Source: Nitrospira sp.
GTDB taxonomy: Bacteria; Nitrospirota; Nitrospiria; Nitrospirales; Nitrospiraceae
Length of the DNA: 64,000 nt
Direction: 5' to 3'
Assembly (NCBI GenBank): GCA_035968315.1
Contig: JAVYIN010000002.1
Span: forward strand, 1-64,000
Part shown: one piece after another, positions 6,520 to 11,528 of the stretch
Layout: each line of letters begins with the position of its first letter
Numbering within the stretch: the first letter of the stretch is position 1
Made by a program: the position numbers and the translations under genes
The notes under the pieces: generated by a model
What the model saw: only the letters and a program-made list of their open reading frames with translations
The model's database searches: none
Told to the model about the DNA's origin: nothing

Positions 6520-7623
6520 TTACAAGATGGGGGTAAAACGCAAGTCGTGTGCGTCGGCCACTCCCTGACACGTCACCAGCCCATTTTTCAGGTTGACACC
6601 GCGCGCGAAACCTGGATCGGATTGGACCGCCCGATCGACGCCGTCCGAGGCCAGCCGCATGAGGTATGGAAGCGTCGCGTTCGTCAAGGCGAAGGTCGAG
6701 GTCCGCGGCACGATGCCCGGCATGTTCGCGACACAATAATGCAGCACGCCCTCGACGACATACACCGGATCGGAATGCGTGGTCGCCCTGGTCGTCTCGA
6801 AACAGCCGCCCTGATCGACGGACACATCCACCACCACCGCCCCCGGCTTCATGCGGGACAGCAGTGCGCGCGAGACCAGCCTCGGCGCCTTGGCGCCCGG
6901 CACCAGCACCGCGCCGATGACCAGATCCGCCTCGCACACGGCCTGTTCAATCGCCGCGTCGCTGACCGCGCGCGTCACGACCCGCCCCTGATAGAGATCG
7001 TCGAGATAGCGCAGCCGCTCGACATCCAAATTGATCACCGTCACCTGCGCGCCCAATCCGACGGCAATCCGCGTGGCGGCAGCGCCCACAATACCGGCGC
7101 CCAACACTACCACCTTGCCCGGCTCAACCCCCGGCACTCCGGCCAGCAAGACTCCGCGCCCCCCCTGAAGCTTTTCAAGATAATGCGCGCCCACCTGGAC
7201 CGACATCCGTCCGGCAATTTCACTCATGGGCTTGAGCATGGGCAGGCTGCCGTCTTTCGCCACCGTTGTTTCGTAGGCAATCGCCGTGATCTTCGCGTCC
7301 AATAACACCCTGGTCAGTTCCGGAAGCGACGCAAGATGCAGATAGGTGAAGAGCACCTGGCCAGGACGAAAGAGCGCGCATTCGGACAAGAGAGGCTCTT
7401 TCACTTTGACGATCAGCTCCGCCTTTTGAAAGACCTCTTCCTTCGACGAGGCCAGCGATGCGCCCGCCCGCCGGTATTCGTCATCGTGAAATCCGCTTCC
7501 GAGCCCGGCGGAAGGCTCCACCCACACCGTATGTCCGGCCTTGCGGAGCGCCGCCGCGCCGTCAGGGGTCAGACTCACGCGATATTCGTGGTCTTTGATT
7601 TCCTTGGGAACGCCGATGATCAT
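6520..7623 (-). CDS. ald: Alanine dehydrogenase
   Basis: A 367-residue NAD-dependent alanine dehydrogenase that interconverts alanine and pyruvate plus ammonia. It starts with the family signature [10 protein letters not shown] and E-x-R-V (EYRVSLTP). It has K-x-K-E-P near residue 75 and H-L-A (YLHLA) with the catalytic histidine. The Rossmann motif [11 protein letters not shown] is near residues 173-183. The length is normal. The gene starts 8 bases after the stop of the Lon-like protease gene on the same strand, so they are probably one transcript. tRNA-Pro lies just downstream. Confidence 0.95.
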
Positions 7624-7631
7624 CGTGAATC

Positions 7632-8528
7632 CTATAGCGCTGGACGCAATGGACGACCGGTCATGATTTCATAGGCCTCTGCCAGCGTCCCGACTTCTGT
7701 GATTTTGATCGATCGTGCCATTCCTTTATCGGTAATAGCAAATGTGTTTTGTCCGGCGGGGAGCACCATCTCATGGATATTCCGCATCATGTGACACCCG
7801 TCGATTTTATGCTCTAACCCGCCCACCGGCCCCACAACCAAATTCATATCGATGGTGCCAGAAATACAGACATCCGTTCGCACGGGATCGCCGAGTAATG
7901 CGGCAGCGACCGCGACCGCCCACGCGGCACCGGCGCTGGGGCCATCTATTTGCTCACCCATGTGCAGAATCGACCCCACCGGCATCGTCAACTGTGCCTG
8001 CACGAATCGCGGATCATAGTTGACCGCCTTAGCCGCGGCGAGCACCGCCACCGCAAACGTCTGCCTCGGCACATTTTGAAAATGGTGGTCGGTTCCCAGG
8101 TAAGGCCCGTTTCCCGCCGCCCAATGGGCCAAGTCCACCTGAACCAGCGCGATATCGCCTTGATTGGGCTGGCTCCAGCCTTTTGCGGCAAGAGAGGACG
8201 AGATCCGTGTGACATAGAGGTTAGGGACCGTCCGGGAGGATGGTTCAAACGGCCGCGACGATAATTGCGGCGCGACTCGTTGAATTGGGACCGGAATGGC
8301 GCCCGCCTGTTTCTGCACAGACTCAATGGAACCCCGCGCCGCCGAGGTTGGCGCCGATTGCAGTTCGGGCAGAGGGCCAACCTCCCGGCACCCGGCCCCT
8401 CCCCTGTCACTAAAGAGCACGTTTCCGTCAGCCTGTTTGCATTTCCATAAATCGGCGTACCCGTCTCCAGGAATCCCCACACATACTGAGAGCATCCCCA
8501 TCGTCAGGCCCAACGCATGGCTCCTCAT
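7632..8528 (-). CDS. Exported DUF4124 + Lon-type (S16) protease domain protein
   Basis: A 298-residue protein with a signal peptide (about residues 1-25). A short DUF4124-like segment (DLWKCKQADGNVLFSD, two cysteines) and a low-complexity linker follow. The C-terminal half resembles the proteolytic domain of Lon. The catalytic serine is in DGPSAG (Ser198) and the lysine in GPVGGLEHK (Lys241). The 43-residue spacing equals that of E. coli Lon (S679/K722). There is no AAA+ ATPase domain. This would be an ATP-independent protease acting outside the cytoplasm. A ribosome site AGGAGG precedes the ATG at 8526-8528. ald follows after 8 bases. The substrate is unknown. Confidence 0.8.
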   Translation of the reverse strand: MRSHALGLTMGMLSVCVGIPGDGYADLWKCKQADGNVLFSDRGGAGCREVGPLPELQSAPTSAARGSIESVQKQAGAIPVPIQRVAPQLSSRPFEPSSRTVPNLYVTRISSSLAAKGWSQPNQGDIALVQVDLAHWAAGNGPYLGTDHHFQNVPRQTFAVAVLAAAKAVNYDPRFVQAQLTMPVGSILHMGEQIDGPSAGAAWAVAVAAALLGDPVRTDVCISGTIDMNLVVGPVGGLEHKIDGCHMMRNIHEMVLPAGQNTFAITDKGMARSIKITEVGTLAEAYEIMTGRPLRPAL

Positions 8529-9438: not shown

Positions 9439-9852
9439 ATGGCAGTTGAAGAAAAATGGAAAGCCAACCAGGAAAAAGTGGCCTTCACCAAACAGTTTCC
9501 TGGCCTGACGTTGGACTGGCACACCTGCCAGGGCAAAACCATCCAAGCCGTGGTTCCCTTAACCGGGAAACAGGGTGCCGCCGTGGTCGTATTTACCGAC
9601 GGATCATTTACCGTCGTTCCACCGCTTACGCCGGAACCCTGGGAGCTGGGCCAGGCGCTCGTCGATGCTCGGACTCAGCTTGAACCGAAACATCCCGAGG
9701 CCTATGTGGAGTATGATCGCCTGGTCAAAAAAGATCGGGAGGCGTTGAAATCAGCCCGAGTGGAAAAGATCATGGGCGCGATTCAGAATAATCTGGAGCA
9801 GATTCCCGAACTCAAAGATCGGTTGAAAGAACTCGTGAAGGAGTGGAAGTGA
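9439..9852 (+). CDS. Conserved-looking hypothetical protein
   Basis: A 137-residue soluble protein with no family I recognise. The N-terminal half is mixed beta (VVPLTGKQGAAVVVFTDGS). The C-terminal half is a highly charged helix (KKDREALKSARVEKIMGAIQ ... LKELVKEWK) suited to protein-protein contact. It has a single cysteine (HTCQG), no signal peptide and no membrane segment. Its stop overlaps the start of the 7-cysteine ferredoxin-like gene, which implies translational coupling and perhaps a shared complex. Confidence 0.7.
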   Translation: MAVEEKWKANQEKVAFTKQFPGLTLDWHTCQGKTIQAVVPLTGKQGAAVVVFTDGSFTVVPPLTPEPWELGQALVDARTQLEPKHPEAYVEYDRLVKKDREALKSARVEKIMGAIQNNLEQIPELKDRLKELVKEWK

Positions 9853-10193: not shown

Positions 10194-11528
10194 CTATGGG
10201 GCCAGAGTAAAGTCCTGGTTCAGATTATCACCCGCAGAAATATTCACGGATAACGGCGTCGGGTTCTGGGTCGCGTACGCCGTGGTGGGCGTCTGCGCGG
10301 AACCTTGAACGGTATACCACCCAGCTACTGCCCCCTGAGATGTTGCACTCGGTACAATCGGCAAGGGACCGTACGTGGCAAGCGAAGGGGCTACGATGGG
10401 TAGAACTAATCCATACCCATAATCGCCCACTGGTACTGCGCCGTCATTGACCGTAGCGACCTGCGATCTCACCGTTACAGTCGGCCCACCAGTAAGTGCC
10501 TGCTTCGCGGCAACAACAACCGTCGCATCATCGCGATCATCAACCGCGGGTGGAGGCGGCGGGTTGATCAACGTCACCGTGTCGCCGATTGTGTGAAATG
10601 CGGAGGGCGGCAACGAAAACGGCTGCGCCTGAGTGCTGATTGGAGTGATGCTTGCGCTGCTTGAGACCGGCACTCCAGTTATAACGGCTGTCGCACAGCA
10701 GGTATTTGTCGGGCTGTTTCGCGCCGTGATCACCACATCGTAGTTTGCCGGGTAGTCACCAGGTAACGGATAGCCAGGCAACCGGGGAAGAAAGAATTCC
10801 CCGGTTTGGGGATTCGGCACCGTCGCACGAACAATTTCACCATTCCTCTGAGCCGACACCACGACGTTGTAGGTAAGCAGATTCGTGGCGACAAAACCTT
10901 TGATCCCGTTCAGCACGTATGGGATAGCCTTGATCACGGGTTTCAGTTTGTATCCGCCATTTCCCGTCTTTACAATGGATTGGCAGGCATCGAAGTCCAG
11001 CAACAGATCAACTCGCTGTCCGGAAGGCACGTCGAACTCGTTTATCAGCTTAATCCCAGACTGAACCGCGCTGGGTGTGTCGAGCGGAATTCTATTGCTA
11101 GGATCATTAGGATCTTGGCCCTCAAGGATAATCCAATTATTATTTCTCTCCAAGACTAGCCGCACTTGCGTATAGCGTCCCGCCGCCAATGACGTCTGGC
11201 CAAGACTCTCTAGTGCACCATTAGGCTGCGTCGGATCATTGAGACTCAGCAGATTGATTGGCCTCGGTGAGGGAAGCACGATGTCGGTCCATCCGGCGCT
11301 GTTTTCGTCAGCTGAACTACTCTGATGGACCCGCACCTTGCTGACCGTGACATTCACCTGGTCGTAGCCGCAGGCTGGCGCGTCCGTGAGCGACACACTT
11401 AATGTGCCGGGTTGCGCAGTGGCTGCGGGTCCCCCGTCTCCCCCGCCACTGCATCCAACCGCGAGCGCCGTGAGCATGAAGCCCATTGCCCCTACCAACC
11501 CTTTGTATTTGCCCGTCCATACATTCAT
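10194..11528 (-). CDS. DUF4382-domain lipoprotein
   Basis: A 444-residue lipoprotein. The lipobox (ALAVGC) places the lipid on about Cys26, followed by a Ser/Gly linker. Residues about 40-190 match the DUF4382 pattern, with LSVSLTDAPACGYDQVNVTVSKVRVH at the start and a GQRVDLLLDFDACQSIV end. The remainder is Pro/Thr/Val-rich beta sandwich-like material with carboxypeptidase-regulatory-type character. It is probably an outer-membrane or surface-exposed lipoprotein of unknown function. Codon use looks somewhat less GC-rich than in its neighbours, and the flanking gap is AT-richer. This may mean recent acquisition. Confidence 0.8.
   Translation of the reverse strand: MNVWTGKYKGLVGAMGFMLTALAVGCSGGGDGGPAATAQPGTLSVSLTDAPACGYDQVNVTVSKVRVHQSSSADENSAGWTDIVLPSPRPINLLSLNDPTQPNGALESLGQTSLAAGRYTQVRLVLERNNNWIILEGQDPNDPSNRIPLDTPSAVQSGIKLINEFDVPSGQRVDLLLDFDACQSIVKTGNGGYKLKPVIKAIPYVLNGIKGFVATNLLTYNVVVSAQRNGEIVRATVPNPQTGEFFLPRLPGYPLPGDYPANYDVVITARNSPTNTCCATAVITGVPVSSSASITPISTQAQPFSLPPSAFHTIGDTVTLINPPPPPAVDDRDDATVVVAAKQALTGGPTVTVRSQVATVNDGAVPVGDYGYGLVLPIVAPSLATYGPLPIVPSATSQGAVAGWYTVQGSAQTPTTAYATQNPTPLSVNISAGDNLNQDFTLAP

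Follow-up and report, generated by a model that had tools for sequence, protein, structure and literature searches.

The proteolytic domain of Lon (S16) uses a Ser-Lys dyad, S679 and K722, with a spacing of 43 residues, and in passages of a 2008 survey Lon_C stands without a companion domain in 39 of 117 Lon-like proteins (PMC2605481). The same fold, dyad and spacing are found in LonA and LonB, which carry in addition a LON N-domain and an AAA+ module. MtaLonC is an S16 protease without ATPase activity; in the passages describing it, it is hexameric and has a large N-terminal fragment, part of which is proposed to be an inactive AAA-like domain; it breaks down unfolded substrates in the absence of ATP and leaves folded ones uncut, and its authors regard processivity as inherent to the Lon proteolytic domain (PMC3391209). 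Outside the cytoplasm, two proteins without an ATPase domain have been described, each with a transmembrane anchor, a PDZ domain and the S16 dyad. YlbL of Bacillus subtilis, a membrane-anchored PDZ-Lon protein without AAA+, is reported to need its serine and lysine (S234/K279, spacing 45), and its authors take extracellular YneA as its substrate (PMC6051672). SepM of Streptococcus (S235/K280, spacing 45) is reported to act at the cell surface, where it cleaves a signalling peptide (PMC11197336).

The window analysed here is a stretch of 64,000 nucleotides of Nitrospira sp. (contig JAVYIN010000002.1). The product of one of its minus-strand genes is probably a Lon-type (S16) serine protease of the cell envelope that is exported and needs no ATP. 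The gene, its predicted parts and its neighbour are as follows.

7632..8528, minus strand: gene of the predicted exported S16 (Lon-type) protein, ATG start, 298 amino acids
8454..8528, minus strand: residues 1-25, predicted by rule as a Sec signal peptide that is cleaved after Ala25
8376..8453, minus strand: DUF4124-like cysteine module, about residues 26-51 (W28, C30, C47)
8250..8375, minus strand: predicted disordered linker, about residues 52-93 (pLDDT below 50 for residues 53-79)
7647..8249, minus strand: S16 (Lon) proteolytic domain, residues 94-294
7935..7937, minus strand: codon of Ser198, predicted nucleophile
7806..7808, minus strand: codon of Lys241, predicted general base
7866..7868, minus strand: codon of Cys221, predicted disulfide partner of Cys245 from co-occurrence
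7794..7796, minus strand: codon of Cys245, one helix turn after Lys241 (helix position from the AlphaFold model)
6520..7623, minus strand: ald, alanine dehydrogenase, next gene (Pfam AlaDh_PNT_C, E 3.8e-82)

Profile searches, with scores well past chance, and structure models agree that the protein carries a genuine S16 (Lon) domain. It matched Pfam Lon_C with an E value of 1.1e-9 (38.6 bits; cut-off 21.1), and phmmer against solved Lon domains gave a best E of 6e-9 with an alignment that was gapless around the dyad. NCBIfam Lon models matched the C-terminal stretch (best E 4.3e-13) far under their whole-protein cut-offs, which is to be expected of a protein with no other Lon domain. Ser198 lies within DGPSAG and Lys241 within GPVGGLEHKIDGC, 43 residues apart; a sequence-only reading of this DNA had pointed to that exact Lon spacing and to matching motifs around the dyad, and the gapless alignment bears out both. 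AlphaFold models built on 30 sequences (mean pLDDT 72.5) and, for the mature protein, on 43 sequences (mean pLDDT 82.9) each have an S16 core that is mostly above 90. Lon protease domains were the top matches to the model in Foldseek and in VIA-align, the latter with Z scores of 20.3 and 21.1 for the two models to 1rr9_A (E. coli Lon; 2.2 Å rmsd, 173 residues). The presence of the S16 fold had been set beforehand as a test of the assignment, and the models have it. Conservation of the dyad points the same way. Both residues are kept in 30/30 closest relatives, which came from a protein search and were not selected for Lys241 or Cys245, and in 98/98 complete S16 domains from the loci retrieved, even in a divergent clade where little else is conserved. 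The 98 are 99 distinct rows minus the frame-broken L150, and comprise 64 domains with the cysteine pair described below, 32 exported ones without the N-terminal module and two cytoplasmic Lon proteins; the S16 frame of L051 was left out of the counts.

The N-terminus has a hydrophobic stretch followed by GDGYA|DLWKC, where the bar marks the predicted cleavage site. By the same rule-based assessment, Ala stands at -1 in 53 of 59 rows and a hydrophobic stretch is present in 58, a count that takes in the fragment L150, so that the signal peptide proposed in the earlier reading is matched by export-signal features in most members. A lipobox at Cys16 had looked possible and was ruled out, since Cys16 is not conserved among relatives. 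The absence of an AAA+ module likewise stood: Pfam gave solely Lon_C and a borderline DUF4124 in the window protein, and neither AAA+ nor PDZ domains were found there or in 30 members, all 30 of which have Lon_C. Comparison of the gene with those of three relatives gave dN/dS values of 0.09, 0.10 and 0.12 (0.05-0.08 for ald), indicating that it is under purifying selection.

The N-terminal module is less clear-cut. The reading from sequence had described a DUF4124-like front, and a match to DUF4124 (PF13511) does exist, but it is weaker than implied (E 7e-4, 20.2 bits, with a second value of 20.8), borderline under the cut-off of 22; six of 30 members matched at E <= 0.01. The module is modelled as three short strands with pLDDT 84-88. 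Structure comparisons of the protein as a whole listed no match to the module, which says nothing about its fold. DUF4124 is reported in TfpC, a Neisseria envelope protein needed to maintain type IV pili (PMC7593972). In the S16 proteins a role for the module as tether or substrate binder is a guess. The S16 domain can do without it, as L046 of the cysteine-pair clade indicates: its N-terminus is hydrophobic and anchor-like, and the module is missing.

A similar module also occurs in a separate secreted family, with a WxCxxxDGxxxYTNKExxGC-like sequence and a conserved, cysteine-ended C-terminus (for example L053:7994-8557, alignment A2; the window genome's own copy is L168:4226-4852). Each of 30/30 chosen Nitrospiraceae genomes has one full-length copy, four further rows in the count being either fragments or the module that belongs to the S16 protein, and none of 13 aligned members had a Pfam match. 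Of the 23 of these genomes with a module-less S16 gene, 18 have the free-standing protein no more than 5 kb away from it; of the 12 with a module-bearing S16 gene, none does. A split-and-fused link between module and S16 domain was considered and rejected: at the KefB locus the module protein stays with or without the S16 gene (G000, G022, G024, G206), so that the linkage mostly reflects a gene order that was inherited. Placement beside an ScpAB-type S16 gene in genus g12 is the sole separate linkage event.

In a tree of the 98 domains, a well-supported branch splits the cysteine-pair clade (64) from the module-less exported clade (32), in which a hydrophobic stretch precedes the S16 domain in 31 members; the two Lon proteins are the only outside rows, and the deep order is unsure, since long branches meet there. 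Searches for the family point to one bacterial order. Some S16 match was present in 59/59 genomes searched, cytoplasmic Lon counted. Among the matches listed from a 295-genome sample of the phylum, E values below 1e-100 fell in the window's genus, in genus g20 of the same family and in family f2 of the same order; short S16 frames occurred solely in Nitrospirales, and the matches listed outside that order were open frames of about 730 amino acids or more, like Lon. A scan of GTDB genomes returned 59 loci (L071-L129), partly selected for Lys241 and Cys245 since one of its two patterns contains these residues. All but one are titled Nitrospira, Nitrospiraceae, Nitrospirae or Nitrospirales, and the exception, titled 'uncultured Nitrosospira', nests inside Nitrospira in the tree. 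Among the matches listed, the exported S16 family thus appears confined to Nitrospirales in the searches made here, and some Nitrospira genomes show no member of the window's subfamily. Family f3 holds divergent short exported S16 proteins (L066-L069) with YG[DE]SLS at the serine and the lysine kept.

Two cysteines distinguish the window protein further. None of the 30 closest relatives lacks C221 or C245, and across the 98 complete domains both are present in 64, neither in 34 (the 32 module-less exported relatives and the two cytoplasmic Nitrospira Lon proteins) and a single one in none. C221 lies two residues ahead of the position of Lon Thr704 and C245 four after the lysine; by the Lon structure, the two would be expected opposite each other, a helix turn away from the dyad. 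The all-or-none pattern fits a predicted disulfide in an oxidising envelope.

These observations suggest a model whereby the protein would be exported by Sec and cleaved after Ala25, leaving the cysteine module joined to the S16 domain through a flexible linker. Ser198 would attack the peptide bond with Lys241 as base, and outside the cytoplasm the active-site region would be stabilised by a disulfide between Cys221 and Cys245, a helix turn away from Lys241. As the protein has no unfoldase, its expected substrates are peptides or unfolded stretches of envelope proteins, and not folded ones. We infer export, catalysis, the disulfide and this substrate class from the features above, and by analogy the protein may work like MtaLonC, YlbL and SepM.

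A fold shared with non-proteases calls for some caution. In RadA and BrxL the Lon fold is a scaffold that is not known to be catalytic, and their Lon-fold domains matched our models with Z scores of 16-17, so that the fold alone does not show proteolysis, and the window protein could in principle be a scaffold of this sort that binds peptides or other envelope proteins. We consider this improbable, given that serine and lysine persist in every complete domain, the divergent clade included, at the Ser-to-Lys spacing of Lon. The earlier proposal had named loss of either residue among homologues as an observation that would count against it, and no such loss was seen in the complete domains.

The gene neighbourhood bears on two further alternatives. 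In the window, ald starts 8 bases past the S16 stop codon on the same strand, and eight syntenic relatives share this order and orientation; by clustering it is downstream in 28 loci at a median gap of 8 bp, plus L085, about 21 distinct loci once duplicate genomes are removed (20 without L085; some genomes are present twice under different names). Such an arrangement might suggest a joint function with alanine dehydrogenase, in which, for example, the protein would release amino acids for Ald to deaminate. However, Ald is cytoplasmic, and the adjacency is conserved in the ald subclade only. A second, sister subclade has its S16 gene between rnhA (35 loci, 32 distinct) and the gene of a secreted protein, and a third adjoins a gene that we read as formate-tetrahydrofolate ligase in eight loci, some of them from duplicate genomes. 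Moreover, G025 keeps an intact ald block (ald 87% identical), and all that is left of its S16 gene is a C-terminal remnant with a broken frame (L070:6554-6800), lying between ald and the flanking block; in G134 the S16 gene is frame-broken. These losses indicate that ald does not need the protease and that the S16 gene is dispensable in some lineages. The remnant and the loci of the other subclades led us to reject Ald as a functional partner, and we regard joint action with it as very improbable; the position beside ald that the earlier reading had singled out is true of the window, but it marks a single subclade and is dispensable.

The secreted protein of the rnhA-type subclade raises the alternative of a dedicated processing protease, which would mature or remove one particular secreted Nitrospira protein as SepM does a signalling peptide. 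It is OB-fold-like, about 134 amino acids long, and encoded 3' of the S16 gene on the same strand at a median gap of 24 bp in 32 loci (30 distinct by S16 sequence; for example L048:8886-9287 and L050:7635-8033), and SepM and YlbL are themselves described as acting on particular substrates. Against this, the neighbour is missing from ald-type loci, the window included, its OB-fold assignment is under the Pfam cut-off (E 0.047 and 0.011), and neighbourhood clustering found no functional partner common to all subclades. In our judgement, a single dedicated partner is rather unlikely. We favour a predicted envelope protease acting on peptides and unfolded segments.

How does this protein relate to the described systems? 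The earlier reading had called an ATP-free Lon-type protease outside the cytoplasm unusual; SepM and YlbL are precedents, but the architecture differs. Like them, the window protein has the S16 dyad, no ATPase domain and a (predicted) extracytoplasmic location. Unlike them, it has a predicted cleavable-type signal in place of a transmembrane anchor, a predicted disordered linker where their PDZ domain lies between anchor and S16, and a dyad spacing of 43 as opposed to 45. It scored 13.3 bits against SepM_fam_S16 (NF041438), for which nothing in its own genome was above the cut-off of 200. The score, the missing PDZ and the spacing together indicate that it is not a member of the SepM/YlbL group. 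From LonA and LonB it differs in lacking both the LON N-domain and AAA+, in its predicted export and in the extra cysteine pair; by our own reading, an HVP(E/S/A)GA-type stretch before DGPSAG in the two Lon proteins of its genome is also absent. Unlike MtaLonC, it has no AAA-like domain. Passages of the 2008 survey name no exported stand-alone Lon_C member and no DUF4124-Lon_C protein, and the string 'nitrospir' is absent from its text (PMC2605481). A literature search of open-licence papers returned no title naming an exported Lon-type protease of Nitrospira, and protease words led to no passage on one in an order-wide paper on Nitrospirales (PMC12342949). Taken together, the window protein adds a new form to a kind already known, and does not stand for a new kind.

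Key nitrite oxidisers and complete ammonia oxidisers belong to Nitrospira, and little is known of how its envelope is policed. If active, the protein would be a Gram-negative counterpart of SepM and YlbL reached by a different architecture. It would then show that the Lon peptidase domain works in an extracytoplasmic setting with no unfoldase, and would offer a small, naturally occurring S16 enzyme with which to study what the domain can do by itself. A more speculative idea, which we put forward tentatively and think the less probable outcome, is that Nitrospirales evolved their own envelope Lon system: at least one exported ATP-free S16 protease in most genomes, in two clades, one of them fused to the module and locked by a disulfide close to the catalytic lysine. 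Its activity could then serve as a readout of redox conditions in the nitrite-oxidation compartment. The redox cysteine pair of E. coli Lon sits at positions other than 221 and 245. E. coli Lon is reported to be redox-switched by that pair (PMC12288459), which makes a redox-reporter reading of the Nitrospirales S16 proteins testable.

Two other genes of the window deserve mention. Positions 10194-11528 on the minus strand encode a secreted-looking protein of 444 amino acids (DUF4382, E 7.8e-37), which was not found in several otherwise syntenic relatives. Positions 9439-9852 encode a conserved protein of 137 amino acids that matches Pfam Med26 over the cut-off (E 1e-4), probably a helical bundle matched by chance.
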